From Oscillospiraceae bacterium (lineage in GTDB: Bacteria; Bacillota; Clostridia; Oscillospirales; Oscillospiraceae), in assembly GCA_024685535.1 (NCBI GenBank), contig JAIKVS010000040.1, positions 1 to 52,805 on the forward strand: a stretch of DNA of 52,805 nt, in the 5' to 3' direction. Under the pieces are notes generated by a model that was given only the letters and a program-made list of their open reading frames with translations, searched no databases and was not told where the DNA came from. Made by a program: the position numbers and the translations under genes. Below, one piece after another: positions 1,168-15,992 of this stretch (within the stretch, counting starts at the first letter, position 1; every line of letters starts with the position of its first letter).

Positions 1168-1860
1168 ATGAAAAGGTCGGAAATCAATGCGGCACTGAGG
1201 GAGATGGAGGCAATGTGCAGAAAAGAGCACTGCTATTTGCCGCCTTTCTGCTCTTTCACTCCGAATCAGTGGGAGAACATAGGCTGCGAATATGATGAGG
1301 TCCGTGACTGTATGCTGGGCTGGGATATTACTGATTACGGGCTTGGTGACTTTAATAAGGTCGGCATGTCGCTGATCACCATACGAAACGGTAACCGCAG
1401 CATTCCGGATAAATACCCGAAGGTCTATGCCGAGAAACTGCTGTATCTTAAGGAAGGACAGTACAGCCCAAATCATTTCCACTGGCACAAAACTGAAGAC
1501 ATTATAAACCGGGGAGGCGGTAACGTACTTATCAGAGTATTTAATTCTCTACCGGATGAGTCGATCGATCATGAGAAAGATGTCACTGTGCATATGGACG
1601 GCAGAACTTTCACCGTGCCCGCAGGGACACAGCTGAAGCTGACTCCGGGTGAAAGCATCCACATACAGCAGTTCCTGTACCATGATTTTGAGGTCGAACC
1701 AGGTACCGGGGCGGTTTTGCTTGGGGAAGTAAGCCAATGCAACGATGACAATACTGATAACAGGTTTGAACCTCCGGTCGGCCGTTTTCCTGCAATAGTG
1801 GAGGACGAGCCTCCTTACCGCCTGCTTTGCAACGAATATCCAAAAGCATCTAAGAAATAA
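1168..1860 (+). CDS. D-lyxose ketol-isomerase family (cupin)
   Basis: MKRSEINAALREME... start preceded by GAGGAG; metal-binding cupin motif HFHWHKTEDIINRGGG; ORF track starts at 1063 but the family start fits 1168. Confidence 0.8.
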   Translation: MKRSEINAALREMEAMCRKEHCYLPPFCSFTPNQWENIGCEYDEVRDCMLGWDITDYGLGDFNKVGMSLITIRNGNRSIPDKYPKVYAEKLLYLKEGQYSPNHFHWHKTEDIINRGGGNVLIRVFNSLPDESIDHEKDVTVHMDGRTFTVPAGTQLKLTPGESIHIQQFLYHDFEVEPGTGAVLLGEVSQCNDDNTDNRFEPPVGRFPAIVEDEPPYRLLCNEYPKASKK

Positions 1861-1890
1861 AAGAGCCTGGATCATAAGATCCAGGCTCTT
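1861..1890. terminator. bidirectional hairpin; probably the original tRNA-Pro terminator
   Basis: aagagcctggatcataagatccaggctctt, near-perfect inverted repeat directly abutting the displaced tRNA 3' fragment. Confidence 0.75.
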
Positions 1891-1935
1891 TGGTCGGAGT
1901 GCGGAGATTTGAACTCCGGGCCTCTTGGTCCCGAA
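1891..1935. repeat. attL: 45-bp direct repeat, displaced 3' part of tRNA-Pro
   Basis: tggtcggagtgcggagatttgaactccgggcctcttggtcccgaa, identical to 11427-11471. Confidence 0.95.
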
Positions 1936-2039
1936 TTAACGAAGAAGTAGTGAAAAAAGTTGAAAAACCTTGATTTACTGCCATTTTCTTGGTATTATAT
2001 AAGCGTAAAAATTACTATCTTTTAGCATCATTTAGTAAG

Positions 2040-2067
2040 TTTGTTGACACTTTTGTTGACACTTTTT
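2040..2067. repeat. Putative integrase arm-type sites, left
   Basis: TGTTGACAC repeated twice 12 bp apart (ttgttgacacttttgttgacactttttt); same motif pair near the right end. Confidence 0.65.
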
Positions 2068-2086
2068 TCAAGGAGGATACCAAGAT

Positions 2087-3571
2087 ATGGCAACGATTAA
2101 GGCTAACAAGAATAAGGACGGAGATGTCATAAGCTATAGGGTGAGAGCTTGCATCGGCAGAGATGGTTATAACAAACAGATTTGGAGAACATGCACGATT
2201 GAACGGCCTGAAGGTCTCACACCTAAGAAGGAAGAAAAGGAGGTCATAAGACTCGCTGAGGCATGGGAAGAAGAACAGAAAAAGGATTATGCTCTTTCCG
2301 GGAACTCAGAGAAGAAGGTCGATAAGAATAAAATCACCTTCAGAGAGTTTGTAAATAACAACTGGATAAAGGACCACGTTCTTGACGGAACGCACTCTCC
2401 GAGCAGCGTATATTTCTTCAAATATATGGCAGAGGACCTTATAGAATACTTTGGAGATAAAAAACTGAGAGCCATAGACGGAGAGGCCGTGAAGAGATAT
2501 ATCTCCTATCTGAACAATGAAGCAAGGACCGCAGTATATGATTATCCGGAAGTCAGCAAGGTGAGCACAAGGAAGGCCAGCTCCGGAGATGTAACCATTA
2601 CATGGCCGAAGTATAAAGACGCTATATCCTACAAGGTCACTTGCAACAGAGGAAAAGCCTCACGCTATGTCTTTAAACCTATAGGAGAAACCACCGAGCT
2701 CTCGTTTGTCGATTCTCAGGCCACTGAAGGCTCGAAATACATAGTTAAAGCAAAGGTGAAGGGTGAAGGGGAGCCGTACAAGAAAAGCACCATACAACAC
2801 CATTTTGCGACACTGCGGAATATCATGGAATATGCTCGCAGATTTCACTATATAGACTTTGACCCTTGTCAGGACCTGTCCCAAAAGGAAAAGCCTCACA
2901 GAGATAAGAAAAAGGTCGATTTTCTAGCTCCAAAGGAGGCGGTCAGATACATGGATTGCCTGAAGAATGAGGAACTGTTTTGGAGAGTGTTTCAGAATGT
3001 GCTTATTACCACTGGTCTCCGGAGAGGTGAAGCGGTCGGCCTCCAATGGGGTGACATTGATCCGGAAAAGCTGACAATTACAGTGCAGCGTAATGTGACA
3101 GTTGATAAGGATAGCGAGAGCGGCTATCACATCGGAAATACAAAGACCGGAGAGAGCAGAACTGTTCCTATCAGCGAGAGACTATATAAGATGCTCATGG
3201 CCTTGAAGGCAGACCTTGAGAACAAGTTAAGCGAGAAAGACGATGATGGTAATATAGTCACTCAGGTCAGCATCTTTCCGAATGGCTTTATCTTCAATCG
3301 AGAACTTGACCCTTATACTCCGATATATCCGTCTACTCCTACAAGATGGCAGTCTGATTTTGTCAAACGGCACAACCTTCCGAACGTATCCCCGCACGAT
3401 CTTCGACATACTGCAGCGACACTTGCCTTGGAGAGTGGAGCCGATCTGAAGCAGGTGCAGGAGCTCCTTGGCCACAAAGACCCATCAACAACAATGGCGT
3501 TCTATGCCGGTGTGACAGATGAGGCAAAGAGAAGAACAGTTGAAGGTATAGAGAGTATAATAAATGGATAA
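2087..3571 (+). CDS. int: tyrosine-type site-specific integrase with internal FN3-like insertion
   Basis: Catalytic motifs TTGLRRGEAVGLQW, HDLRHTAATLALESG, LLGHKDPSTTMAFYAG; SD caaggaggataccaag ATG; 494 aa, longer than typical because of an ~85 aa insertion at aa ~147-231. Confidence 0.95.
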   Translation: MATIKANKNKDGDVISYRVRACIGRDGYNKQIWRTCTIERPEGLTPKKEEKEVIRLAEAWEEEQKKDYALSGNSEKKVDKNKITFREFVNNNWIKDHVLDGTHSPSSVYFFKYMAEDLIEYFGDKKLRAIDGEAVKRYISYLNNEARTAVYDYPEVSKVSTRKASSGDVTITWPKYKDAISYKVTCNRGKASRYVFKPIGETTELSFVDSQATEGSKYIVKAKVKGEGEPYKKSTIQHHFATLRNIMEYARRFHYIDFDPCQDLSQKEKPHRDKKKVDFLAPKEAVRYMDCLKNEELFWRVFQNVLITTGLRRGEAVGLQWGDIDPEKLTITVQRNVTVDKDSESGYHIGNTKTGESRTVPISERLYKMLMALKADLENKLSEKDDDGNIVTQVSIFPNGFIFNRELDPYTPIYPSTPTRWQSDFVKRHNLPNVSPHDLRHTAATLALESGADLKQVQELLGHKDPSTTMAFYAGVTDEAKRRTVEGIESIING

Positions 3572-3590
3572 CTGAATATATAAAAGAAAT

Positions 3591-3621
3591 GAGCAGCACT
3601 GTAAAAGGTGCTGCTTTTTTA
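3591..3621. terminator. Rho-independent terminator after int
   Basis: AGCAGCAC tgtaaaag GTGCTGCT TTTTTT. Confidence 0.8.
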
Positions 3622-4293
3622 TTTGCTTTGTTCATTTAGTAATTCTTTGTAATAATCAAGGCCTTGTCTTATAACAGTCATTTTCATTTCCTTATATAAG
3701 AAACCGAGCTTTAAAACCTCAGTAACCTCATCGCCTAGACAAACAGAGACAAGTTTGGAGATGTTCTCTGGGCCATACCTGACAGACAATTCGACGTTGT
3801 CAGAATGAACGTATTGATCCATATATGAGAATAACGTCTTAATATAAAACTCGTCACTTTTGGGAATATTGCTAGGATCGGACAAAACGAGGTTGATAAA
3901 GTTAAGAGTCCTTGAGCTCTCTTCATAATCCGATGTAGTGATAAGATGCAGCAAGTTAACAGCAGAGTCAGACAATCCGGTGTACTTACAGATAGCCTGA
4001 ACATCTGCGCTTGGAGAAAACACATCAGACTGACCTATGAGATAGTCCAACGAACAGCCAAAGAATTCAGCTATTTTTATGAGATTTGAAGTTTTTGGAA
4101 AGGTGCTGCCATCTCTATACTGTCCAATGGCCTGATCAGATACTTCGAGATGTTTGGCTAAATCTTGACGGACTTCAAGATCCTCAGTAAGGTCCTTAAA
4201 GCGTTTTTTGAAACCATTTTTGAGTATTTCATCGGTCAGTTTGTTTCTTGATACGTGCTTATCATCAATTAACTGATTCTTTTTCTCTGACAT
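3619..4293 (-). CDS. XRE-family HTH transcriptional repressor
   Basis: DLAKHLEVSDQAIGQYRDGSTFPKTSNLIKIAEFFGCSLDYLIG HTH; start MSEKKN preceded by GGGAGG; divergent from the excisionase-like gene. Confidence 0.88.
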   Translation of the reverse strand: MSEKKNQLIDDKHVSRNKLTDEILKNGFKKRFKDLTEDLEVRQDLAKHLEVSDQAIGQYRDGSTFPKTSNLIKIAEFFGCSLDYLIGQSDVFSPSADVQAICKYTGLSDSAVNLLHLITTSDYEESSRTLNFINLVLSDPSNIPKSDEFYIKTLFSYMDQYVHSDNVELSVRYGPENISKLVSVCLGDEVTEVLKLGFLYKEMKMTVIRQGLDYYKELLNEQSK

Positions 4294-4420
4294 AACTATA
4301 GCCTCCCGCAAAGCAATGCTTTCAATATAATCATTATACAAATTATTACTTGAAAGTCAATGACATTATATGATACAAACTAATCAAGTAAAACTTTGAT
4401 ATAGGAGGTAATCAGAAGTA

Positions 4421-4621
4421 ATGCTTCAGAAGTTTGAAAATGCGGGTACATCGGTTAGTTGCCCAAAGATGATGACCATCAAGCAGGTCGCAAGCACTGG
4501 CCTTCTCCCGGAACATGCACTCCGTACCGGTGTAAAGGAAGGATGGATCCCTCACGTTAAGAGTGCTAGCAGAGTCTATATCAATTACGACAAGTTGGTC
4601 GAGAAACTGCAGCAGTGCTGA
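4421..4621 (+). CDS. excisionase-like small helix-turn-helix protein
   Basis: MTIKQVASTGLLPEHALRTGVKEGWIPHVKSASRVYINYDKLVEKL; upstream AGGAGG; next to repressor and integrase. Confidence 0.65.
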   Translation: MLQKFENAGTSVSCPKMMTIKQVASTGLLPEHALRTGVKEGWIPHVKSASRVYINYDKLVEKLQQC

Positions 4622-4633
4622 AAGCAGGAGGAG

Positions 4634-6868
4634 GTGGCGAAAGTGCCAGCTATACAGAATAATCCTTCCGAAATGGCGCTGGCAGCTCTGGCCTATTGCA
4701 AGCAAGATGGCTGCCGGCCAGCCTTGAAGATTTTTCCGGTCGGCAAAGACAAAAAACCTTTGATTGCAGACTGGCCAAACAAAGCGACATCAGACGAAAA
4801 AACAATAAAAGATTGGTGGACACGCTGGCCTGATGCAAACATCGCCATGGCCACAGCCGGCTTCGTTGTAATCGATATTGATGAACACGACCCTGCTGCA
4901 AGTGGCAGCGAGAGTCTCCATGATCTAGAACTTCAATATGGGGAGCTTCCTGATACCCCGGAGCAGATGACTCCCTCAGGCGGGAGACACATCATTTTAC
5001 AATATAAAGGAACAGACATCACTGTAGGGACCGGACTAGCTCCAGGAATCGATTGGAGAGGTAACGGCGGGTACGTTGTAATCGCTCCGAGTGTTCTCGC
5101 TGATGGCAGGTCATATGAATGGGAGGCAGGTCACGATCCGAGAGATACACCTCTTGCAGAGCTTCCTGGATGGCTGCATGATCTGATAGTAGAAAAACGA
5201 ACTGCGAGGTCATCACAAGGGCCAGCCAGGGCCGCGCCAAAGATAGAATTACCGGAAACGATTCCCAAAGGTGAACGGAATGACACGCTGTTCCGGATGG
5301 CATGTTCCCTAAGAGAGAAGAATCTGACAGAAGATGAAATGCTTGTCACTCTGAAAGAGATGAACAGGACCCGCTGCGATCCACAGCTCACTGAGAGGGA
5401 GCTCAAGCAGATTGCATCCAGCGCGGCAAAGTATGATCCTGGAGATCTTCCAAAACTCCCGCAGGATTATCGACCTCCGGATCTCTCTGACGCGGGTAAC
5501 GCTGAAGCGTTTACCAAGACTGTAAAAGGTCGGATGCTGTGGTGTGATGCACTGGGCTGGCTCTGCTGGGATGGCATGAGATTTGCACAAAATGACCATG
5601 CTGCCACTGCGCTGGCGATTGAATGGGCGCAGCGACTTTTAGATTATGCTACCGAACAATACAGGCATGAGCTTAGAACAGATCCTGACACTGGCAAAAT
5701 CGTAGTATCAGAGGCTACAAAAAAACTGCTGCAGCATGCACAGAAAACCCGCAGCGCAGTATCAATACAGAACTTTATGAATCTGTCAAAAGCCTACCTG
5801 CATATCCGAGCAGATCAACTAGACTCGCAGTGGTGGAGCCTTAATACACCGGCGGGAATCGTAGACCTCCGGACCGGCAAGACAGGACCACACGATCCGA
5901 CAGCACTGTTCACGACCATTACAAAGTGCTCACCATCTGATGAAAATATGGAGATGTGGACGACCGCCCTTGATATTGCATCTTGCCACGATTCTGCCTG
6001 GATAGATTACGACAACATGACTGAAGGGTCGATGCTGTTTGGAAAGATATTCAAAGAAGGGATCCTGATAAAGAAGGGCCCAGGGAGAAACATGAAAAGC
6101 ACTCTCACAAATGCAGCACTTCAAGTGCTAGGAGACTACGGCGGGACAATAGACAGCGCGATCTTGACCACTGACCGGCAAAATCGAGGGGCAGCACTTG
6201 CAACACTGCGCGGGAAAAGGATGGTCGTATGTGGCGAGCTTGAGGAAGGGCAAAGGTTAAGTGTTGCCACATTAAAGAAACTGGCCAGCACGGACCCGCT
6301 GACCATCGAAGCAAAGTATAAACAGCCTGAGACGATAAATCCATCGCATCACCTGATCCTATATACAAACTTCCTGCCTAGAGTGGGCAGCACTGACACC
6401 GGGACCTGGAGAAGGATTTCGGTCCTTCCATATGATGCTACGATCCCTGAAGGTGATGGAGACATTCCAAACTACGCCGATGAACTGGTTAACAAGGCGG
6501 GAGGCGCGATCCTGAAATGGCTGATAGATGGAGCTGTAAAATTCTTTCAAGCCGGCTGCCGAATAGATGCACCTGAGTGTGTTCGCCAGGCTACCGAGGA
6601 TTACCGAGCTGGAGAAGACTGGCTGCAAGGATTCATATCTGAGCGGTGCATCGTTGACAGAGATGCCAAAGAGCGGGCTGGGGTCCTTTATGACGAGTAT
6701 AAAGACTATGCTGTTTCTATTGGAGACTACTGTCGCAGGGCTACAGACTTTGTGAAGGCTATGGAGCTCGCCGGTTTCCGGTCAGTGACTGTGAACGGCA
6801 AAAAGTACTGGCTGGGGATCTCAATCAACTACGCTGAAAGTAGCTCGGCTTCTTCTCGAGTGAGCTGA
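4634..6868 (+). CDS. bifunctional DNA primase/polymerase (PrimPol) - P4/D5-family helicase
   Basis: N-terminal PrimPol motifs (VVIDIDEHD, TPSGGRHIILQ, WRGNGGYVVIAPS), PriCT-like segment, D5-type helicase (GPGRNMKST, GELEEGQ, TNFLPRVGSTDTGTWRRISVLPY). True start may be GTG 4643, 8 nt after AGGAGGAGG. Confidence 0.9.
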   Translation: MAKVPAIQNNPSEMALAALAYCKQDGCRPALKIFPVGKDKKPLIADWPNKATSDEKTIKDWWTRWPDANIAMATAGFVVIDIDEHDPAASGSESLHDLELQYGELPDTPEQMTPSGGRHIILQYKGTDITVGTGLAPGIDWRGNGGYVVIAPSVLADGRSYEWEAGHDPRDTPLAELPGWLHDLIVEKRTARSSQGPARAAPKIELPETIPKGERNDTLFRMACSLREKNLTEDEMLVTLKEMNRTRCDPQLTERELKQIASSAAKYDPGDLPKLPQDYRPPDLSDAGNAEAFTKTVKGRMLWCDALGWLCWDGMRFAQNDHAATALAIEWAQRLLDYATEQYRHELRTDPDTGKIVVSEATKKLLQHAQKTRSAVSIQNFMNLSKAYLHIRADQLDSQWWSLNTPAGIVDLRTGKTGPHDPTALFTTITKCSPSDENMEMWTTALDIASCHDSAWIDYDNMTEGSMLFGKIFKEGILIKKGPGRNMKSTLTNAALQVLGDYGGTIDSAILTTDRQNRGAALATLRGKRMVVCGELEEGQRLSVATLKKLASTDPLTIEAKYKQPETINPSHHLILYTNFLPRVGSTDTGTWRRISVLPYDATIPEGDGDIPNYADELVNKAGGAILKWLIDGAVKFFQAGCRIDAPECVRQATEDYRAGEDWLQGFISERCIVDRDAKERAGVLYDEYKDYAVSIGDYCRRATDFVKAMELAGFRSVTVNGKKYWLGISINYAESSSASSRVS

Positions 6869-6875
6869 AATAACT

Positions 6876-6972
6876 GGCAGGGTGGGACATGGTGGGGGCT
6901 AAAACCAAAACTCTCTATATATATTTTCTCTATATATACTTTTGTATTTAGCCCTAACCATCCCTAACCCTA
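6876..6972. other. Candidate replication origin: long imperfect inverted repeat around AT-rich direct repeats
   Basis: gggctaaa (6896-6903)/tttagccc (6947-6954) core; longer arms agggtgggacatggtgggggctaaa vs tttagccctaaccatccctaaccct; loop has TTCTCTATATATA-type direct repeats. Confidence 0.45.
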
Positions 6973-7006
6973 AAAAATATATAGAAATATTAAGGAGATT
7001 GAATCA

Positions 7007-7435
7007 ATGAATAGGAACTATTTGGAGCACTTGAAGACCTGCCTCGATGTACTCGAAGGAAGGGTAAGACCACAGGGAGCAATCTATGAACGTTATTATG
7101 CCTCCAGGATGGAAAATGCACCGCAGAAATGGGCAGAGAGCACGGAGACCAGTCATATATCCCTGGTACTGAAAAAGCTGCTGGAAGCAGAGGAAAACAA
7201 CTACGAACGCGCAAAGACTTCTCTTCGGGACGAACACATACTGGCAGTGGAACGGATCAAGGACGAAGCAAATATAGCTTGTACTCTAGTCAGGTCCATA
7301 CTGGGAGACGATGCCCAAAAGCGTGATTTTGCAATCGGATATATAAAAGCAGAGCTTGCTGCCTGTCCTGAGGGCACTGATAACGGCAGCGATCTCAAAG
7401 CATATGATACAGAGACCGAATATGATTGGTCATAA
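7007..7435 (+). CDS. hypothetical protein
   Basis: 142 aa ORF, SD aaggag, element operon. Confidence 0.7.
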   Translation: MNRNYLEHLKTCLDVLEGRVRPQGAIYERYYASRMENAPQKWAESTETSHISLVLKKLLEAEENNYERAKTSLRDEHILAVERIKDEANIACTLVRSILGDDAQKRDFAIGYIKAELAACPEGTDNGSDLKAYDTETEYDWS

Positions 7436-7453
7436 AGGAGGTGATCCCGCAGC

Positions 7454-7675
7454 ATGACGATACCATCGCAGACAAAGCCGCTGCACGTTGAGAAAATTGT
7501 TTTCAATGACGGCAGCAGTATAACCGGCGCTGATGCTTTTCTCTTCAATGGCTTCCTGGTTGTGGATGATGGCCGGCACGAGGCTCCGACCTGGCACAAC
7601 GTGGACACTGTTGACCGCCTGGAAGATGTGACCTATGTAGAGGCAAGGCAGCGCGTATCACTGTCAAATTGGTAA
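7454..7675 (+). CDS. hypothetical protein
   Basis: 73 aa, SD aaggaggtgatcc; phage-type small ORF. Confidence 0.65.
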   Translation: MTIPSQTKPLHVEKIVFNDGSSITGADAFLFNGFLVVDDGRHEAPTWHNVDTVDRLEDVTYVEARQRVSLSNW

Positions 7676-7687
7676 TTGGAGGACACA

Positions 7688-7882
7688 ATGGCAAAAGCAT
7701 GTAACAACTGTGAGTTTTATAATCCGGAGCTAACGAAGCAAACCATCATTTTCAATCCCGGCACCGGCTGCGAGTATATGAAACGAACAGGCCGATATGC
7801 AATTGCAGTTAAAGGAAACTGCACCGATTTCAAACCTAAAAATAACGACAAGGAGATTAAAAACAATGGCGTACACAAGTAA
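7688..7882 (+). CDS. small Cys-rich hypothetical protein (possible zinc binding)
   Basis: MAKACNNCEFYNPE...GTGCEYMKR...GNCTDFKP; SD ggagg. Confidence 0.65.
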   Translation: MAKACNNCEFYNPELTKQTIIFNPGTGCEYMKRTGRYAIAVKGNCTDFKPKNNDKEIKNNGVHK

Positions 7883-8450
7883 AACCTTAATCAAACAGAA
7901 TCTGAAGGCAGAGATGCACGATTACCGCATGGCACACGAACAGGCACAGGAAGCCTCCAAGGCTGCACGGCTCGCAGCCGGCAAAGCACCGATCTCCGGA
8001 AAGATTACCGAGGACAATCAGCGCAGATGGTTTATCAACAAAGGTACTGTGCTCAAAGATAAGGCGCTCAGAGAGCTGGACTATTGGAGAGATCAGGTAA
8101 CCCGCGCAAAAACTACAGCACCTTCCGAAGATGCACTCAGAGCTATTCAGGCCTTCAAGCTGAGATCACCCAAGACGATGACCCGCGAGGAATATCAGGC
8201 AGAAGCTCAGGAGCTGGCCGATTCCGTCAAAGATAACTATTCAGCGTATGCAACGATCTACGATATAGCGGCAGAAAATGGCGCTCACATTGCACTGCAC
8301 CCATTTGCTGAAGAGATAAAAGCTTTTGAGTCTGTTGAACACAATATCCGCAGCTACTTCAATCCGGTGATTGATGCCGGTGGCAGCGGCCCTTCTGCCG
8401 GCCGTGAAGCCCTTAACGCAATGATCCTGGATGAACTCATGGGAGAATGA
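7866..8450 (+). CDS. hypothetical, mostly helical protein
   Basis: 195 aa from ATG 7866 with SD aaggag; no family recognised with confidence. Confidence 0.7.
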   Translation: MAYTSKTLIKQNLKAEMHDYRMAHEQAQEASKAARLAAGKAPISGKITEDNQRRWFINKGTVLKDKALRELDYWRDQVTRAKTTAPSEDALRAIQAFKLRSPKTMTREEYQAEAQELADSVKDNYSAYATIYDIAAENGAHIALHPFAEEIKAFESVEHNIRSYFNPVIDAGGSGPSAGREALNAMILDELMGE

Positions 8451-8451
8451 T

Positions 8452-8709
8452 ATGGCAAGGAAGAATGTAAAATTCGAACTCAATCTCAAAGGTCTAAACG
8501 AACTGATGAAGTCACCGGCGATGAAGTCCGTAGAGATGGAAGCCGCCCAAAGCATCGTGGGCCAGCTTGGACCGGGTTATACAGTGGAGCCCCCTAAGAA
8601 TATGTCATTTGTTGCGATCACTACTGTTCATGCAAGTGATCCAAAAGCTTTTCAGGATTGTCGTGAGAATGATGTTTTGAGAAAGGCAGCAGACAGCACT
8701 AAAATATAA
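8452..8709 (+). CDS. phage head-tail connector (neck / HK97 gp10-like) protein, putative
   Basis: VKFELNLKGLNELMKSPAMKSVEMEAAQSIVGQLGPGYTVE...DPKAFQDCRENDVLRKA resembles the recalled neck-protein layout (helix - GYxV - RDN..N.LLKA). Start overlaps upstream stop (TGATATG). Confidence 0.55.
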   Translation: MARKNVKFELNLKGLNELMKSPAMKSVEMEAAQSIVGQLGPGYTVEPPKNMSFVAITTVHASDPKAFQDCRENDVLRKAADSTKI

Positions 8710-8936
8710 CAGGCTTCCTGGCTGAAGGAGTTAAGAAGGCCCTCCCTCCCTGGCTTCTCATGTTTTCGGTTGAAGGTGAAAGAGAATATTATCGGCAGAT
8801 GGATTATCAAAAAAAATATTTTATACAAATACCTTCTCCTGAGGGTGGGGAGGGACCCCCTCGGCCTCCCTTCGGCGCCCCCCTCGCGCAAGCGCCGATT
8901 TCACGCACAGATCTAAATCACCAAGGAGGTGAAACA

Positions 8937-9200
8937 GTGAGTTTAGCAACAATAGTTGAATCCAACGATAATTTGGCTATGCTGCGAGCATTGCGCAGAA
9001 AGCTTGCAGAGACCATAGACACAACAACCAGCGCGCGTGATCTCCCGGCACTATGCCGGCAGCTTCAGAGTGTTTCCGAAAGAATCACAGAGCTGGAGGC
9101 GCAGCAAAGTGATGATCCTATAGGAGAGATCCTCAAGGAACGGAGCAGGCGGCCGCTGCGAGACAGCAACAGAAAAACAATATATCAGGATAACGAATGA
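8937..9200 (+). CDS. small phage protein, terminase-small-subunit-like (tentative)
   Basis: GTG start with SD aaggaggtg; ESNDNLAMLRALRRKLAETIDTTTSARDLPALCRQLQSVSERITELEAQ resembles short proteins next to phage terminases. ORF-track N-terminal extension to 8760 not favoured. Confidence 0.5.
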   Translation: MSLATIVESNDNLAMLRALRRKLAETIDTTTSARDLPALCRQLQSVSERITELEAQQSDDPIGEILKERSRRPLRDSNRKTIYQDNE

Positions 9201-9210
9201 AGGAAATGAT

Positions 9211-9417
9211 ATGGAGATTATACGAAATTGCCCGCATTGTGGCGCTTCATGCAGCCTGGTGTTGAAGCAAAACCTTAAAGGTACAATGTATACATTTGTT
9301 CAATGTGATGGCTGCCGGGCGCAATCTCGAACTATACGGATTGTTGACTCGACCGAGGAAGCACAGGCAATGGCAATAACATTATGGAACCGGAGAGATA
9401 AACATAACGGAGATTAA
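9211..9417 (+). CDS. Lar-like restriction alleviation zinc-ribbon protein
   Basis: CPHCGA...VQCDGCRAQSRTI...EEAQAMAITLWNRR matches Lar layout (two CxxC plus terminal WNRR). Confidence 0.65.
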   Translation: MEIIRNCPHCGASCSLVLKQNLKGTMYTFVQCDGCRAQSRTIRIVDSTEEAQAMAITLWNRRDKHNGD

Positions 9418-9441
9418 AACTAATCTTTCAGGTGAGTAATC

Positions 9442-10050
9442 TTGAACGATGTTTCACAGTTAGCTTTATCCATCCAGCGAGGCCGCGATGACCTGATCCC
9501 GGAACTATGGGAGGCCGTCCGCGGCCTTGTGGGATGGTTTGCAATGAGGTTTTATCTGCTCAGGGAAGATGAATGTAACCGGCATAAGATTGAAGTCGAG
9601 GATCTTGTCCAGGAAGGTTTTTTCGCATTGCTCGACAGTATCAGGAAGTATGATCCTGAGAAGGGAGCTTTCAGCACCTTCCTTGCCTGGGATCTCCGGC
9701 ACGGCTTCCAGGCTGCCATAGGGAGAACTACTCGACAACGTGGTGACATGCTTAATAATTGCCTGTCGCTTGATGCAGAGCTGGATTCCGAAGATCCTGA
9801 CAGTGAATCGTTGATTGACTATATTTCTGATGGTGTAGACTATGCCGCTGCGGTCGAGCACAAAGTCTATCTGCAGCAGCTCCGTGAAGAGCTTGAAAAG
9901 GTGCTGGCTGCGATCCCGGCAGAACAGGCTGAAGTGATAAAGGAATCATTCTACAACGGCAGAACACTAACAGAGATTGCTGCCGCTAAAGCTCAGACGG
10001 TCGAGAACATCCGCAGAAAAAAGGAAAACGGCCTCCGTGAACTTAGGTGA
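9442..10050 (+). CDS. sigma-70 family RNA polymerase sigma factor (element-encoded)
   Basis: Region 2-like VEDLVQEGFFALLDSIRKYDPEKGAFSTFLAWDLRHGF and region 4-like AEQAEVIKESFYNGRTLTEIAAAKAQTVENIRRKKENGLREL. Confidence 0.85.
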   Translation: MNDVSQLALSIQRGRDDLIPELWEAVRGLVGWFAMRFYLLREDECNRHKIEVEDLVQEGFFALLDSIRKYDPEKGAFSTFLAWDLRHGFQAAIGRTTRQRGDMLNNCLSLDAELDSEDPDSESLIDYISDGVDYAAAVEHKVYLQQLREELEKVLAAIPAEQAEVIKESFYNGRTLTEIAAAKAQTVENIRRKKENGLRELR

Positions 10051-10159
10051 AGCAAATATATCCACGAGCTGGAGCGATTCGTTGACCTGGAAACAAACTT
10101 CTATAGGCCATCGTCAGTGAACCGCTTTAATGCTTCCCATACTTCCGTAGTCGAGGAGC

Positions 10160-10375
10160 TTGTCCTATTCCGAGAACGAAAGCGAGGTGAATACTATCGC
10201 AGTATATGTTAAAAACGGCGATCTTGATTCTGCACTTGAAGTATTCAAGAAGCAAACGTCAAAGGGCCATATAGTTGATGATTACAACGATCAGAGCTCT
10301 TTCAAGAGCGATCACCAGCGACGGCGGGATAAACAATGGCAGCGCGAAGTAAAACGGCGTAGAAAGCAAAAATAA
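10160..10375 (+). CDS. ribosomal protein bS21-like protein
   Basis: VYVKNGDLDSALEVFKKQTSKGHIVDDY..SSFKSDHQRRRDKQWQREVKRRRKQK resembles bS21 (KNE.L..ALRRFKR..SK.G....F..PS.+RK+K...A+R+.K). Start uncertain: TTG 10160 or GTG 10187. Confidence 0.65.
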   Translation: MSYSENESEVNTIAVYVKNGDLDSALEVFKKQTSKGHIVDDYNDQSSFKSDHQRRRDKQWQREVKRRRKQK

Positions 10376-10443
10376 TAGCGATTAATGGAAAGCGCCAGGA
10401 GGCCGAAAATATGCTTCCTGACGCGTGCTTTTGTTGATTCAGC

Positions 10444-10884
10444 TTAGAAATGCAGCTCTAAGCTATTATCTAATTTATCAAGATTCTCAGCAACAAGTGA
10501 TATAGCAGCATTAAGAAGTGAATAATACTTAACGGCCCAATCGGCGGCCTTATGAACGCGATCTTCGAGGCTGCCTGACCCTTCTGTTAAACTTCCGTTA
10601 AAGTCACGTTCATCAAAGCAGCTCTGCATTAAACCTACAAGCAGATCCCTGTTCAGTATGATTGCATATCTGACTTCTTTATCAATGTAATCGCTGTTGA
10701 TCCTGTCAAAGTCATTGTTTTCTACTTCGTTAATCTTTCCCATTGCATGAACACCGGCAGCATATGCCAGCTTGATGGCCTCATCCTGATCCGGAACCGC
10801 GGCAATAAGATGCAGCAGCTCATTCTGCTGAAGGGCAATCTCCTTAGGAATGTTGTTATATTCTGTCGTTTCAAGTTTTCTCAT
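10444..10884 (-). CDS. orphan hypothetical protein (possible cargo)
   Basis: 146 aa, SD aaaggaggaaagc, opposite strand to the operon, own promoter. Confidence 0.75.
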   Translation of the reverse strand: MRKLETTEYNNIPKEIALQQNELLHLIAAVPDQDEAIKLAYAAGVHAMGKINEVENNDFDRINSDYIDKEVRYAIILNRDLLVGLMQSCFDERDFNGSLTEGSGSLEDRVHKAADWAVKYYSLLNAAISLVAENLDKLDNSLELHF

Positions 10885-10921
10885 GTGCTTTCCTCCTTTT
10901 ATTTCGGCAATGCCGTTGCTT

Positions 10922-10957
10922 CATAATAACACATATACCGGTATATACTCAATATTT
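10922..10957 (-). promoter_or_regulatory. Promoter with operator palindrome in spacer
   Basis: Minus strand: TTGAGT-18-TATTAT; spacer contains perfect 14-bp palindrome ATATACCGGTATAT (10933-10946). Confidence 0.55.
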
Positions 10958-11059
10958 CACTCTGCATAAATCTCTACCGGTTGATTTGTAATGGTTGCCT
11001 AATGACCACAATGGAGCTGCTATGATAGAATAAACTATCTATCACTAGGAGGCGATCAC

Positions 11060-11287
11060 GTGGCAAGGCCAACAAAGCGAACGGCTGACGAAAAGAAAGA
11101 GCAGCAGAAGGCAGCACAAAAACGATATATTGAGAAGCTGGCTCGCGTTGAGATCACCATGCCTCCGGAACGGAAACAGCAGATTCAGGATCATGTTAAG
11201 GTAACAGGGGAGAGCATCAATCAATTCCTTAACCGAGCAGCAGAGGAAACCATTGAAAACGATATAAAAGACAAGGCCGAGGAGTGA
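11060..11287 (+). CDS. ribbon-helix-helix (Arc-like) DNA-binding protein
   Basis: ARVEITMPPERKQQIQDHVKVTGESINQFLNRAAEETIE; SD aggagg; extended -10 TGCTATGAT upstream. Confidence 0.75.
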   Translation: MARPTKRTADEKKEQQKAAQKRYIEKLARVEITMPPERKQQIQDHVKVTGESINQFLNRAAEETIENDIKDKAEE

Positions 11288-11314
11288 TTTCTCCCCGGCT
11301 TCATTTTGTCTCAA

Positions 11315-11340
11315 TTTGTTGACACTTTTTGTTGACACTC
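11315..11340. repeat. Putative integrase arm-type sites, right
   Basis: tttgttgacactttttgttgacactc: TGTTGACAC twice with 13-bp period, same motif and orientation as left end. Confidence 0.65.
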
Positions 11341-11383
11341 ACTGTTTTGCGGAAAACCACCATCTTTGAAAAGTTACAAAATG

Positions 11384-11424
11384 CAATAAAAAAGAGCCAA
11401 AACCTTGAAGTTTTGACCCTTAAA
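11384..11424 (-). terminator. Element-supplied terminator for tRNA-Pro
   Basis: Minus strand: GGGTCAAAACTTCAAGGTTTTGGCTCTTTTTT, hairpin plus T-tract just downstream of the tRNA. Confidence 0.6.
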
Positions 11425-11426
11425 AG

Positions 11427-11502
11427 TGGTCGGAGTGCGGAGATTTGAACTCCGGGCCTCTTGGTCCCGAACCAAGCGCGCTACCATCTGCGCTACACCC
11501 CG
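11427..11502 (-). tRNA. tRNA-Pro (anticodon CGG), CCA encoded; contains attR 11427-11471
   Basis: CGGGGTGTAGCGCAGATGGTAGCGCGCTTGGTTCGGGACCAAGAGGCCCGGAGTTCAAATCTCCGCACTCCGACCA folds as a cloverleaf. Confidence 0.95.
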
Positions 11503-11658
11503 TTTTTCGACAGCTTTGATATTATACTTTCTGTAAACAGTATTGTCAAGTAAAACAACTGCGTCGATCAGTATGAAAAAGCAGATAATTAACTTCTCAA
11601 GTTCGCTGCGATATGCTATACTAATTAAAATAAATTTATGGTAAGAGACAGGGTAATA

Positions 11659-12546
11659 ATGGACAGAATAATACATGCTACGGCGGCTGACGGCCTGATA
11701 AAGATGGAAGTGGTTGTTGCGCGCGATTCAGTTGAGAAGGCGCGCACAATACATGACTGTACACCTACTGCCTGTGCAGCACTTGGAAGAACTCTTTGTG
11801 CGGCCTCGCTTCTAGGCAATATGATGAAAGAGGATAACGGTACTGTGACTATCAGAATAAACGGCGGCGGACCGATCGGCAGTATCACGGCAGTTTCTGA
11901 TTCATCGGGCAATGTCAGGGGATTTGTAGATAATCCGCATACGGAGCTGCCGCTCAGGGCGGATGGAAAGCTCGATGTTGGAGCTGCGGTCGGAAAAGAC
12001 GGAACCATAACTGTTTCAAAGGATATCGGACTCAAGGAGCCTTATATCGGCTCGGTTGAGCTTGTCAGCGGTGAGATCGCGGAAGACTTTACTAATTATC
12101 TTCTTGTCAGCGAACAGGTGGCCTCAGCGTCTGCACTCGGCGTGCTGGTCGATACAGATCTTTCTGTCAGGGCGGCAGGCGGGTTCCTTGTTCAGCTGAT
12201 GCCGGGGGCAGGAGATGAGCTGATTACTAAACTTGAGGACAATATCTTTTTAATGGATGCCCTTACCACTGTTCTTGATGAGGACGGACCCGAGGAGCTT
12301 TTCAGACAGGTCCTTAAGGGTCTTGAATACCATATGGTCGGTACGGATGAAATAAGCTACAAATGCTACTGCAGCGAGGAAAGAGTCCTTGAAGCCGTCA
12401 GCTGTATCGGTAATGATGAACTGAAGCAGCTTTTCGGAGATGGAAAGACCATAGAGGTGAACTGCCAGTTCTGTGACAGGGTCTATTCCATTGGACCCGA
12501 AAAGATGAAGGAATATATCTTATCAAAAAAAGATAAGAATATATAA
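11659..12546 (+). CDS. hslO: Hsp33 redox-regulated chaperone
   Basis: C-terminal zinc motif CYCSEERV...CQFCDRVY; Hsp33 N-terminal pattern. Confidence 0.93.
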   Translation: MDRIIHATAADGLIKMEVVVARDSVEKARTIHDCTPTACAALGRTLCAASLLGNMMKEDNGTVTIRINGGGPIGSITAVSDSSGNVRGFVDNPHTELPLRADGKLDVGAAVGKDGTITVSKDIGLKEPYIGSVELVSGEIAEDFTNYLLVSEQVASASALGVLVDTDLSVRAAGGFLVQLMPGAGDELITKLEDNIFLMDALTTVLDEDGPEELFRQVLKGLEYHMVGTDEISYKCYCSEERVLEAVSCIGNDELKQLFGDGKTIEVNCQFCDRVYSIGPEKMKEYILSKKDKNI

Positions 12547-12563
12547 ATGAACAGGAGACCGAA

Positions 12564-14075
12564 ATGAACGACGAGAAAGAAAAGCGAATAATCAAAAGAA
12601 ACCTTTTAATGTTTCCGCTGGGCACCGTAGGGCGCGATATGATGTACAACCTGGTGACGAGCTATCTTCTCACCTTTGTACTTTTCACCCGGCAGCTCAA
12701 TGCGGCTCAGCTATCCGCTATTACCGGAATAATGGTTGCAGCGAGGGTGTTTGACGCATTGAATGATCCCATCATGGGCAATATCATCGAGCGTACAAGG
12801 ACCAGAATAGGCAAATTCAAACCCTGGCTCATCATAGGCATACTTACAACTGCGGTCGTTATATATGCGACCTTCAATACAAAGCTGCAGGGCTGGGGCT
12901 TCGTCGTATTCTTCGGAGTGATGTATTTCCTTTATTCTATCACCTATACGATGCACGATATATCTTACTGGGGTATGGTCCCGGCTCTGAGCTCAGATGC
13001 AGACACACGAAATAAATTCACTTCCCGCGCAACTTTGTTTGCAGGTATAGGCGGTATGCTTGCAGCTTCATTCATACCCATGCTCACCGCCGGAGACAGC
13101 GCGATCGGCGGCGATGCTGTTACAGCATATGGGATTGTTGCATTCATCATAGCGGTTCTTGGACCGGTATTTCTCGCATTTACGGTTTTCGGAGTTAAGG
13201 AGCAGCGCGACTATAACGATGATCCTGTACCCCCTGTAAGTTTCAAGAAGATATGGACAACGATCTCCGGAAACGATCAGCTCCTCTGGATAGCACTTAT
13301 CTTCCTTCTGCAGCAGATAGGAAACGGCATAGTGCTCTCCGGTATAGGCCAGACTTTCATCTATGTGGAATTCGGATACAAAGGCAGCTTCTTCACTGTG
13401 TTCCAGATGCTCGGCATGATGGTCACAGGATTCCTTATGATCTTCTACCCGACTATATCAAGGCATATGCACCGTAAGAAGCTGATGGATCTGCTTATGC
13501 TTCTTGCAGCGATCGGCTATGTAATTATGCTCATTCCTTCTCTCTTCATCCCCAAGGGAGTAATGAACGTTGCAGGATTTGATATCAAGTTCATACTGCT
13601 CACTCTTGGCTACATGCTGGCAAACTTCGGCCAGTACGGTTTCTATCTCATCATGATGATCTCAATCATGAATACAGTAGAATATAACGAACTCAGACAT
13701 GCAACGAGAGATGAAGGCATAATCTCCTCGCTGAGGCCTTTTATCACCAAGCTTGCCTCAGCGCTCACGGTGGCAATTGCAAACATTACTTATATCACAT
13801 TCGGCATACTTGATTATACTAATGGCATCGCGAAACAGGAGCAGCTGGCTAATCAAGGCATCATAACCTCCGAAGCCAAAGGTGAGGCTGTAACGCAGCT
13901 CCTCTCCGGAGTACAGGCAAATCAGTCTCTGGGCCTGCTCTTCGTTATGACTGTGGTCCCTTGTGTACTCATGTTCCTTTCATATATCCTATATAAAAAG
14001 TTCTATAAGCTTGATGAAGAGGAATACGACCGTATCTGCGGTGAACTTGAAGCCAGAACGCAGGATACCATCTGA
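12564..14075 (+). CDS. GPH family (glycoside-pentoside-hexuronide) MFS transporter
   Basis: 503 aa, 12-TM-like, NDPIMGNIIERTRTRIGKFKPW motif. Confidence 0.85.
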   Translation: MNDEKEKRIIKRNLLMFPLGTVGRDMMYNLVTSYLLTFVLFTRQLNAAQLSAITGIMVAARVFDALNDPIMGNIIERTRTRIGKFKPWLIIGILTTAVVIYATFNTKLQGWGFVVFFGVMYFLYSITYTMHDISYWGMVPALSSDADTRNKFTSRATLFAGIGGMLAASFIPMLTAGDSAIGGDAVTAYGIVAFIIAVLGPVFLAFTVFGVKEQRDYNDDPVPPVSFKKIWTTISGNDQLLWIALIFLLQQIGNGIVLSGIGQTFIYVEFGYKGSFFTVFQMLGMMVTGFLMIFYPTISRHMHRKKLMDLLMLLAAIGYVIMLIPSLFIPKGVMNVAGFDIKFILLTLGYMLANFGQYGFYLIMMISIMNTVEYNELRHATRDEGIISSLRPFITKLASALTVAIANITYITFGILDYTNGIAKQEQLANQGIITSEAKGEAVTQLLSGVQANQSLGLLFVMTVVPCVLMFLSYILYKKFYKLDEEEYDRICGELEARTQDTI

Positions 14076-14156
14076 GATCTGACACAGTAATGCTATGCTG
14101 CCGCGGCATTTTATCACCGCGGCGGCATTTTGATTCTTCTTTCGACCGGAGCAGCC

Positions 14157-15992
14157 ATGGATAAACGCCTGAAAAGAATTCTTCCCAAAGTACAGAAGCC
14201 GTCGAGATATACCGGCGGTGAATACAATCAGATAATTAAAGATAAAGACTCCGTTGACCTGAGAGTCGCCTTTTGCTTTCCGGATACATATGAGATAGGT
14301 ATGTCTAATCTTGGCATGAGCATCCTTTATCAGACGATGAACAGCCTTGATTTCGTATGGTGTGAGAGAGCTTTTGCTCCATGGGGCGATATGTATGAGG
14401 AGATGAAGAAAGAAGATATCCCTCTTTATGCCCTTGAAAGCGGAGATGAACTGAAGAAGTTCGATGTGCTGGCTTTTTCCATAGGTTATGAAATGGCATA
14501 TACAACTGTACTGGATATGCTGGACATGTCCGGGATCCCGCTGCGCAGTGAGGACAGAAAAGATCTTCTTCCGATAGTTTTCGCAGGTGGCAGCGCCTGC
14601 GTGAACGCCGAGCCTATGACGCCTTTTATAGATATATTCCTGATAGGTGAAGGCGAAGAGATGGACAACGATGTTCTCCGACTTCTCCGTAGGGCAAAGC
14701 AAGAGGGATGGAGCAAAGACCGCTTTCTTGAAGAAGCGGCGAAGATACAGGGAGTTTATGTGCCTTCTCTGTACGATGTTGAGTATAATGAAGACGGAAC
14801 TGTGCGCTCATATACCCCCCGAAGCGGCGTCCCTGCAAGAGTGCTTAAAAGGATAGTTGAGGACCTTGATGCTTCACCTTATCCGGTAAATCCTATAGTG
14901 CCTTCCACGGAAGTGGTCCATGACAGAGTGAGTCTTGAGCTTTTCCGCGGATGTGTGCGCGGATGCCGGTTCTGCCAGGCCGGTTATATCTACAGGCCGA
15001 TAAGATCCAAAAAACCTGATACGCTGATCCGCCAGGGAATAGAAGCCATACAGAACACAGGACATGAAGAGATCAGTCTTCTGTCACTCAGCACGAGCGA
15101 CTACAGACCACTTTCCGGACTTTGTGACGGACTGCTTGAATACTGCGAATCAAGAAGCGTTGGCCTTGCCCTCCCGTCTCTGAGAGCGGATAATTTCTCC
15201 GTTGAAATTATGGAAAAGATTCAAAAAGTCCGAAAGAGCGGACTTACATTCGCCGTGGAAGGCGGCAGCCAGCGCCTTCGTGACGCAATAAACAAAAACG
15301 TTACCGAGGAAGATGTGCTCAATACCTGCGCACTGGCTTTCTCTGGAGGCTGGAACACAGTAAAGCTGTATTATATGCTCGGTCTGCCGACTGAAACGGA
15401 TGAGGATATAGTCGGTATCGCAGAGATGAGTGAGAAGATACTGCACTGCTGGAGAGTAAATGCCAAAAACAAAAACAGGGGTGTTCGGATAACTGTGTCC
15501 ACCTCCTGCTTTATACCGAAACCGCACAGTCCTTTCCAGTGGGAAGCTCAAATAAGCCAGGAGGAGTATCTCAGAAGAGTTAATCTTCTGCGTTCATCCA
15601 TAAAAGCAAAAAATGTTGTCTACAATTGGCACGATGCAGAAACAAGCGTTATTGAAGCTGCACTTTCCAGAGGCGACAGACGCATGGCAGATGTCATCGA
15701 GGAAGTTTTCCACAACGGAGGAAGGCTGGATGCCTGGACCGACTATTTCCGTTATGACAGGTGGAACCGGGCATTCGAAAAATGTGGACTTGACCGTGAC
15801 TTTTATGCTTCGCGCGAGCGGCAGGTGACAGAGATCCTGCCCTGGGATGTAATCGACGTAGGAGTAAGAAAATCGCTCCTGATAAGGGAAAAGGAGAGAG
15901 CTTACCGTTCTGAGCTCTCGCCTGACTGCCGGAAAAGCTGTTCCGCATGCGGAGCCGCCGCTCTGCTGAAAGGAGCAAAGTGCGATGAATAA
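14157..15992 (+). CDS. TIGR03960-type B12-binding/radical SAM protein
   Basis: FRGCVRGCRFCQAGYIYRPIR radical SAM motif and family N-terminus. Confidence 0.9.
   Translation: MDKRLKRILPKVQKPSRYTGGEYNQIIKDKDSVDLRVAFCFPDTYEIGMSNLGMSILYQTMNSLDFVWCERAFAPWGDMYEEMKKEDIPLYALESGDELKKFDVLAFSIGYEMAYTTVLDMLDMSGIPLRSEDRKDLLPIVFAGGSACVNAEPMTPFIDIFLIGEGEEMDNDVLRLLRRAKQEGWSKDRFLEEAAKIQGVYVPSLYDVEYNEDGTVRSYTPRSGVPARVLKRIVEDLDASPYPVNPIVPSTEVVHDRVSLELFRGCVRGCRFCQAGYIYRPIRSKKPDTLIRQGIEAIQNTGHEEISLLSLSTSDYRPLSGLCDGLLEYCESRSVGLALPSLRADNFSVEIMEKIQKVRKSGLTFAVEGGSQRLRDAINKNVTEEDVLNTCALAFSGGWNTVKLYYMLGLPTETDEDIVGIAEMSEKILHCWRVNAKNKNRGVRITVSTSCFIPKPHSPFQWEAQISQEEYLRRVNLLRSSIKAKNVVYNWHDAETSVIEAALSRGDRRMADVIEEVFHNGGRLDAWTDYFRYDRWNRAFEKCGLDRDFYASRERQVTEILPWDVIDVGVRKSLLIREKERAYRSELSPDCRKSCSACGAAALLKGAKCDE

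Follow-up and report, generated by a model that had tools for sequence, protein, structure and literature searches.

The DNA analysed here, a stretch of 52.8 kb (the window), carries a 9.5-kb element at positions 1891-11471. This element is probably a phage satellite that is intact and depends on a helper. It belongs to a lineage whose hallmark is the orf194 protein family, mostly in combination with a terminase small subunit (TerS). As judged from sequence, this previously unnamed lineage is found across 18 bacterial genomes, and each member has its own small selection of virus parts. The gene identities, the intact integrative replicon, the lineage, the recurrent TerS pairing and the lack of a complete virion are shown at this level. 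As in broad definitions of phage satellites, the element has its own integration and replication genes, a packaging-type gene (recognised by one profile), and no complete virion.

The element and its integration site

The element is inserted in a tRNA-Pro(CGG) gene and flanked by exact 45-bp repeats (Table 1), the sole direct repeat of at least 22 nt in the window, barring one 22-mer within a paralogous gene pair. A same-genus genome (G014) contains the 45-bp core only once, together with an intact tRNA-Pro gene and the same right flank as the element, and the integration site is thus free in that genome. The sequence-only reading of this DNA had described attL and attR, an integrase, a repressor and a PrimPol-helicase, all of which agrees with the repeat pair and the profile matches. 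All main ORFs are intact, and scans of these ORFs with Pfam, PHROGs and NCBIfam detected no genes for large terminase (TerL), portal, major capsid protein, tail, lysis, relaxase or type IV secretion (T4SS), as had been claimed. The term "capsid-less" is correct for the element in the window but not for the lineage, as the relative L084 has a capsid gene. The view that the genes downstream of the PrimPol form a single tightly spaced operon-like block had to be abandoned, as there are gaps of 138 nt after the PrimPol gene, about 227 nt before the TerS-like gene and 109 nt before the bS21 gene.

Table 1. Features of the element and its target gene (positions in the window)
Feature	Position	Strand	Evidence or remark
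attL	1891..1935		45-bp exact match to tRNA-Pro 3' end
Tyrosine integrase, 494 aa	2087..3571	+	PF00589 4.3e-27
HTH_3 repressor	3619..4341	-	PF01381 1.3e-6; RstR-like NF041951 1.1e-10; divergent from replication block
orf66, putative excisionase or small DNA-binding protein	4421..4621	+	weak phrog_6401 0.033
PrimPol-D5 primase/helicase, 744 aa	4634..6868	+	PF09250 9e-37; PF08706 (D5_N), PF19263 (DUF5906), PF08708 (PriCT_1)
Candidate replication origin	6869..7006	+	tandem 15-mers, doubled CCCTAACC, long imperfect hairpin
ORF, 142 aa	7007..7435	+	no significant family match
ORF, 73 aa	7454..7675	+	no significant match
ORF, cysteine-containing, ~68 aa, start uncertain	7676..7882	+	no match
orf194, family marker of the lineage	7866..8450	+	upstream of neck gene; predicted all-helical
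Neck-like head-tail connector, 85 aa	8452..8709 (ORF from 8431)	+	phrog_387 5.8e-7
TerS-like protein, 87 aa	8937..9200 (ORF from 8760)	+	phrog_1459 2.3e-11
Lar-like restriction-alleviation zinc-ribbon protein	9211..9417	+	PF14354 9.4e-10; TIGR03655 above cut-off
Sigma-70 family factor, 202 aa, regions 2 and 4	9442..10050	+	PF04542 8.3e-12; PF04545 8e-7; TIGR02937 1.8e-21
bS21-like protein	10160..10375	+	PF01165 1.6e-7; TIGR00030 7.5e-9; both above curated cut-offs
ORF, 146 aa	10444..10884	-	no family matched
Small RHH-type protein, 75 aa	11060..11287	+	weak NF041551 and MobA (0.022) matches
attR	11427..11471		45-bp exact repeat inside tRNA-Pro gene
tRNA-Pro(CGG)	11427..11502	-	integration target; attR copy is its 3' end

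Integration, regulation and replication

The integrase has an insertion of about 78 aa (residues ~150-227) that is missing from integrases with 63-65% identity (alignment A5). With respect to the proposed repressor/excisionase switch, the repressor is clear from its HTH_3 domain, whereas orf66 is a putative excisionase on the basis of its weak profile match and its recurrence near repressors, with homologues that open the replication block in L041, L048, L072, L076, L079, L081 and L140. The PrimPol-D5 protein scored 178 bits with TIGR01613 (cut-off 108.7). The segment that follows its gene (DNA folding z = -3.2) may be the replication origin, which would then be placed after the primase as in phage-inducible chromosomal islands (PICIs). 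A genus-wide PrimPol survey mostly yielded distant D5 helicases, with informative cases only in G046, G096 and G073, and a PrimPol scan of genome contigs gave distant matches only. The closest PrimPol is encoded in the faecal record MT839419. This record may originate from a VLP study (PMC8361208) but, its accession being unconfirmed there, we set it aside as evidence for packaging.

Neck-like and TerS-like genes

The neck-like protein, which probably starts at 8452 rather than 8431, had been recognised from sequence before and is now supported independently of its profile match, as tblastn matched 56 phage records with 42% identity and a best E-value of 4e-6 (2.3 Gb searched), and a same-genus prophage has a homologue (35% identical) that sits between its head-closure and tail-terminator genes. 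The start of the TerS-like protein is probably the GTG at 8937 downstream of AAGGAGG, which results in 87 aa instead of 146 aa. The earlier assignment of this protein as TerS-like is in line with phrog_1459, the sole profile behind this putative identity of a protein of only about 87 aa, and tblastn against phages gave no match. A single-sequence AlphaFold model of the neck-like protein was too poor for use (pLDDT 53-54).

orf194 family

A leave-one-out HMM of the orf194 family recognised the protein with an E-value of 3.3e-10 as the single match among 584 ORFs of the window, and beyond the window the profile gave strong matches in 17 genomes, all in the class of the window and from several families. 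No annotated homologue was found, and the comparison with the scaffold protein of the nearest phage (L083:6122-6697) gave an hhalign probability of 0.4% and no sequence similarity. The single-sequence AlphaFold model was all helix, with a pLDDT of 53 too poor for use. In L084, an orf194 homologue ends 31 bp upstream of a major capsid gene of the SU10 type, in the place of a scaffold gene. This capsid gene matches PF17236 (1.6e-49) and phrog_1328 (1.3e-38), and its product shares 65% identity with the major capsid protein of a gut phage. Based on this position in one relative, we propose that orf194 may be a scaffold-like virion-assembly protein.

Several candidates were discarded. A PDB profile search (alignment A3) returned only designed TIM barrels without a passing stretch and syntaxin coils, which we deemed spurious. 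L050, which is the end of a prophage, gave no match with the family HMM, and the 225-aa protein of L024, which resembles orf194 by eye, was likewise unsupported by the HMM.

A lineage of compact elements, probably not a decayed prophage

We propose to define the lineage by an orf194-family protein and a TerS-type gene in an integrase-primase element with no complete virion module, and all of these were found in the window. A TerS-type gene is present in the same element in 15 of the 18 genomes with a strong orf194 match, the window included, and the TerS genes belong to three families, namely the phrog_2538/HTH type, the GP3_package/phrog_606 type, and phrog_1459, the type of the window. L072 and L074, both in tRNA-Pro(GGG), have integrases with 63-65% identity, orf66, a TerS-like gene and orf194, so that the same gene order does occur at tRNA-Pro elsewhere, which was the check suggested by the sequence-only reading. 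Nine relatives are bounded by repeats (5.7-12.9 kb, eight of them at tRNA genes) and have a similar compact plan. None of the nine has a complete virion module, and some hold one virion part: L049 has a TerL gene (PF04466 4e-31) in addition to TerS, and L138 a tape measure gene (phrog_58 1.3e-51). Of the unbounded loci, L084 has a capsid and a tape measure gene, and L140 a tape measure and a tail chaperone gene. A relative with a complete structural module, the counter-test for a satellite, was not seen among the orf194-bearing neighbourhoods examined.

It was in principle conceivable that a temperate phage had lost its structural and lysis genes, leaving an integration-replication block and two late-gene remnants, and the single neck-like and the single TerS-like gene are indeed of phage type. 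However, decay is expected to leave random remnants, whereas orf194 is paired with TerS genes recurrently and with three different families of them. The intact main ORFs and the absence of a full module in all nine bounded relatives likewise argue against decay, the backbone was seen here solely in small bounded forms, and three different orf194 queries each failed to match any of 50,697 phage records. We therefore regard a degraded prophage as improbable, and the preference for a satellite that the sequence-only reading had expressed is well supported by the intact ORFs, the bounded compact relatives and the recurrent pairing.

Lar, sigma factor and bS21

The Lar-like, sigma-70 and bS21-like genes, all named before from sequence, were each matched by Pfam and NCBIfam profiles. 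The sigma factor recurs in four replicons of the element's kind. The bS21-like protein is distinct from the bS21 of the host (G000:C121:6070-6228) and has no counterpart in any of the relatives examined, being found in the element of the window only. Homologues of the RHH-type protein are present in L046, L076 and L081.

Other explanations

An integrative mobilizable element or an integrated cryptic plasmid, which would use a conjugative helper and a cryptic oriT and carry the phage-like genes as cargo or for defence, is also an unlikely explanation. PrimPol-D5 relatives do occur in plasmids, mostly typed as non-mobilizable, and in L024 a PrimPol relative and a sigma factor lie on a contig of 7.59 kb whose ends overlap by 55 bp and which is probably a circular plasmid-like molecule; MobA matches the RHH-type protein very weakly. 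However, relaxase, coupling protein and T4SS genes were not seen in the element or among the Pfam families listed for its relatives, the element matched no relaxase family (integrative mobilizable elements have a relaxase and/or an oriT), and mobilization leaves the recurrent TerS, TerL, capsid, tape-measure and neck genes unexplained.

An anti-phage island of the same anatomy, in which the neck-like and TerS-like proteins and orf194 would mainly be decoys that poison the assembly of helper or foreign phages, with spread being secondary, is very improbable despite the assembly inhibitors Tai (PMC11364771) and Rta (PMC12987554) on record from satellites and prophages, as no PADLOC defence model matched save the generic HTH of the repressor, and the integration-replication block is intact. 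Such a role is compatible with a satellite and not exclusive of it.

Comparison with known systems

PICIs have a divergent regulatory gene pair with a master repressor, a pri/rep module with ori behind it, att sites that are unique to them and that prophages never use, and a size of about 15 kb, and their induction, packaging and interference all depend on a helper phage (PMC6092414). Like the PICIs/SaPIs of Gram-positive bacteria, the element is att-bounded, with an integrase, a repressor (3619-4341, minus strand) divergent from the small regulator orf66 (from 4421, plus strand), a primase-helicase replication block with a candidate origin behind it, a TerS-type gene downstream, and no lysis genes. 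Unlike these, its integrase (plus strand) is oriented opposite to the repressor, it targets tRNA-Pro, is 9.5 kb in size, has a head-tail neck gene, a sigma factor and bS21, and carries orf194 where CpmB/Rcm-type genes are expected.

With P4-like satellites, the element shares the P4-family primase C-terminal domain (TIGR01613) and tRNA integration, and the size-redirecting scaffold protein Sid offers an analogy for orf194. In contrast to P4, the scans with Pfam, PHROGs and NCBIfam found no Sid, Psu or Delta families, and the element has a PrimPol-type N-terminus and a TerS-like gene. The PLE of Vibrio cholerae encodes a tape measure protein (TMP) and a tail chaperone (TAC) and forms chimeric tails (PMC12987554). 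L084, L138 and L140 have a tape measure gene and L140 a tail chaperone gene without other tail genes, and the element of the window has one connector gene. This likeness is one of gene content; the hosts differ, and the element of the window has neither TMP nor TAC. cf-PICIs encode their own capsid, portal, connectors, TerS and TerL. The window's element lacks capsid, portal and TerL; L049 has TerL and TerS and L084 a capsid gene as cf-PICIs do, but no lineage member examined has a complete head and packaging set.

In phages that encode bS21, the gene lies near assembly genes, and a role in late-stage translation has been proposed (PMC9723584, PMC6375957). The bS21 gene of the element also lies near assembly genes; however, the known cases are autonomous phages, whereas here it is a 9.5-kb element and one lineage member only.

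How the proposed satellite could work

We infer dependence on a helper, packaging and every interference step of the satellite as follows. A helper phage would relieve the repressor, and integrase and orf66 would excise the element from tRNA-Pro; PrimPol-D5 would then copy it from the candidate origin directly behind its own gene. The TerS-like protein could bring the TerL of the helper onto satellite DNA, while the scaffold-like orf194 and the neck-like protein may join or redirect assembly of the helper head and the head-tail junction, resulting in partly chimeric virions. Both the recruitment by TerS and decoys in the form of helical scaffolds have precedents (PMC6092414, PMC12409344), as have satellite tape measures within chimeric tails (PMC12987554). 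Lar may shield the DNA upon entry, sigma-70 may set the timing of late transcription, be it in the satellite, in the helper or in both, and bS21 may skew late translation; the satellite could in this way redirect transcription and translation of its helper. With regard to the helper itself, the host MAG is 81% complete (254 contigs) and contains no PF04860 portal, its single phrog_2 TerL match is fragmentary and lies at the end of a contig, and no helper was found. Two other genomes, G099 and G120, each combine an orf194-type element with a Phage_portal match elsewhere in the genome.

In a more tentative extension, which is possible though rather doubtful, the lineage would spread via chimeric virions from a mix-and-match kit, in which TerS and orf194 are constant while the exchangeable parts are a neck, a capsid, a TerL or a tape measure together with its tail chaperone, and some members, including that of the window, would reprogram late expression at two levels with their own sigma factor and their own bS21.

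Satellites described in the cited literature are mostly from staphylococci, streptococci, enterobacteria, vibrios and actinobacteria. The combination of orf194 and TerS marks, at the sequence level, a lineage from a class of bacteria for which that literature describes no satellites. Within this one lineage the single virion parts differ from member to member, so that comparisons between members make it possible to test which component of the virion has to be replaced by a satellite. If functional, a satellite-borne sigma factor or bS21 would represent a new level of helper control.

Boundaries and gene content of the element

The element is flanked by an exact 45-bp direct repeat, the right-hand copy of which forms the 3' end of a tRNA-Pro(CGG) gene; the 52.8-kb window contains no other such repeat except one 22-mer within a paralogous gene pair. 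In the stretch read from a genome of the same genus (G014), the 45-bp core is single and tRNA-Pro is intact with the same right-hand genes, and we therefore regard this site as free of any element. Two other genes lie there between the tRNA-Pro site and the gene homologous to the left-hand one of the window.

Features of the element and of related loci
Feature or locus	Genome	Positions (strand)	Size	tRNA gene	Bounds
Element	window	1891-11471		tRNA-Pro(CGG)	45-bp repeat
Left repeat copy	window	1891-1935	45 bp
Integrase insertion	window	2534-2767	~78 aa
orf66	window	4421-4621 (+)
Repeat-rich hairpin region	window	6869-7006
orf194	window	7866-8450 (+)
Right repeat copy	window	11427-11471	45 bp
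tRNA-Pro(CGG)	window	11427-11502 (-)
L049	G120	6283-15870	9.5 kb	tRNA-Met	repeat-bounded
L072			7.7 kb	tRNA-Pro	repeat-bounded
L074			5.7 kb	tRNA-Pro	repeat-bounded
L075			7.0 kb	tRNA-Met	repeat-bounded
L078			8.4 kb	tRNA-Gln	repeat-bounded
L079			9.1 kb	tRNA-Thr	repeat-bounded
L081			8.6 kb	tRNA-Thr	repeat-bounded
L136			6.3 kb	tRNA-Thr	repeat-bounded
L138	G605	2078-14996	12.9 kb	no tRNA	shorter 20-bp repeat
L084	G384:C70	1-9330
L140	G999	1526-10674
L024	G096:C72	1-7644	7.6 kb
orf194 homologue with LysM-like stretch, L079		8765-9808
orf194 homologue with LysM-like stretch, L081		8951-10027
orf194 homologue with LysM-like stretch, L082		2273-3316
TerL fragment, L089	G000:C219	1-1409

At the sequence level, the assignments of integrase, repressor, PrimPol-D5, Lar, sigma-70, and bS21 are firm, as is that of the neck-like gene as a homology. 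The neck-like gene matched phrog_387 (5.8e-7) and, in tblastn, 56 phage records, mostly streptococcal and lactococcal, and its homologue in a same-genus prophage (L090) lies between head-closure and tail-terminator genes, roles that were read from gene order. The terminase small (TerS)-like gene, with a likely product of just 87 aa, was assigned from phrog_1459 as the sole match (2.3e-11). These two are the virion-type genes carried by the window element. Family profile scans detected no terminase large (TerL), portal, capsid, lysis, or relaxase family in the element, and PADLOC no defence family except the HTH of the repressor.

The integrase has an insertion that is missing from integrases 63-65% identical to it, looks like a small beta-domain, and gave a weak match (0.0015, no passing stretch) to staphylococcal surface protein G. 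Directly after PrimPol lies a candidate replication origin with tandem 15-mers and a doubled CCCTAACC; its long hairpin is imperfect (DNA folding z -3.2).

A lineage marked by orf194

The ORF upstream of the neck-like gene, orf194, matched no family. A profile that started from weak matches in three genomes hit 15 of 401 genomes of the bacterial family at E <= 0.01 (three of them weakly), and searches of the order and class, whose draws overlap, added G745, G732, G539, G498, G605, and G999; the proteins of G539 and G498 are of a second paralogue type, as found in L049. Without the window member, the profile recovered the window orf194 at 3.3e-10 as the sole match among 584 window ORFs, and searches of 50,697 phage records with three different members of the family found nothing. 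The homologues in L079, L081, and L082 have a C-terminal LysM-like stretch (PF01476 at 1e-4 in L079).

Nine relatives are repeat-bounded, eight of them with one repeat copy inside a tRNA gene, and L137, with a 27-bp repeat, is similar to L136. Most relatives share a plan of repressor, small orf66-like or HTH gene, primase/helicase, TerS-type gene, and then orf194. Counting the window, 18 genomes have a strong match to orf194, and in 15 of them a TerS-type gene lies inside the element (phrog_2538/HTH in nine, GP3_package/phrog_606 in five, phrog_1459 in the window); it was not found in G338, G439, and G732, the last at a contig end. The best 25 of the 40 Pfam families matched by 87 ORFs of 13 relatives include integrases, HTHs, replication proteins, and GP3 packaging proteins, with a single TerL, a single SU10 capsid, and no portal or lysis family; the other 15 families are single weaker matches. 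Judged by gene content, the element is an intact integrative replicon of a defined lineage with a recurrent TerS-orf194 pairing, and its virion gene set is too incomplete for autonomy.

Virion parts in individual relatives

The satellite-like element L084 encodes, in order, a D5 helicase, orf194, an SU10-type major capsid protein, a tape measure protein (TMP), TerS, and an integrase. The capsid protein shares 65% identity with its counterpart in gut phage MT835537, and the TMP has 892 aa versus 995 aa in this phage; portal, TerL, and other tail or virion genes were not found in L084, the left end of which is a contig end. Between its repeats, L138 carries TerS, orf194, a 703-aa TMP, and a 305-aa sigma factor (phrog_351 1.4e-38). 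In L140, with neither a recognised integrase nor an att pair, we found TerS, a homologue of a tail chaperone (46%, 1e-32; so called for its position ahead of the TMP), a TMP split over two overlapping frames, and orf194. The att-bounded L049 contains PrimPol, TerS, TerL (Terminase_3), two orf194-family paralogues, and an integrase with a broken reading frame; portal and capsid were not found in it.

PLE satellites of Vibrio use their own TMP for chimeric tails; according to the same study, no satellite TMP had been reported before, and tmp genes are predicted in unrelated satellites (PMC12987554). By analogy, the virion parts of the orf194 lineage fit this principle, and the TMP and tail-chaperone pair of PLE is paralleled in L140.

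Sigma factor, bS21, and possible wider kin

Four elements (window, L138, L023, and L024) combine a sigma factor with a PrimPol or D5 replicon; L023 among them is bounded and lies in tRNA-Met. Such recurrence does not prove a function. L138 is the second case of sigma and orf194 together, and also another TMP case. Among the elements read, the bS21-like gene occurs in the window element only, and its product differs from the host's own bS21, encoded elsewhere in the genome; phage bS21 has been linked to late expression (PMC9723584).

The L024 contig, which has a 55-bp terminal overlap and is probably circular, carries a PrimPol-D5 relative (42%), an RHH-like gene, and the sigma factor; no integrase was seen on its 7.6 kb, and it is possibly an extrachromosomal cousin of the element. 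The closest PrimPol (48%) is on a 4.3-kb faecal 'Bacteriophage sp.' record (L046, MT839419.1) that may be VLP-derived and also has an RHH homologue and an integrase fragment.

Possible helper and proposed mode of action

In the host MAG (81% complete, 254 contigs), PF04860 portals were absent, and apart from one TerL fragment at a contig end, nothing found there pointed to another phage or to an element with TerL. Portal genes outside the orf194 element are present in G099, G120, and G433. A helper would not need to be resident in the host.

In the cycle that we propose, a helper phage would make the particles, and element DNA would be packaged. The protein encoded by orf194 may act as a scaffold, because its gene is directly ahead of the capsid gene in L084 and by analogy to CpmB and Rcm, which are helical decoys (PMC12409344). 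The neck-like protein could substitute for a neck component, and sigma and bS21 would have roles in the satellite cycle.

The window element departs from PICI in two features, namely the direction of int relative to the repressor and the absence of structural genes (a neck-like gene is present), and the genes that define P4-like, cf-PICI, and PLE satellites are missing from it, so that we file it under none of these four types. Its mode of action is most likely that of a PICI, with packaging of the TerS type.
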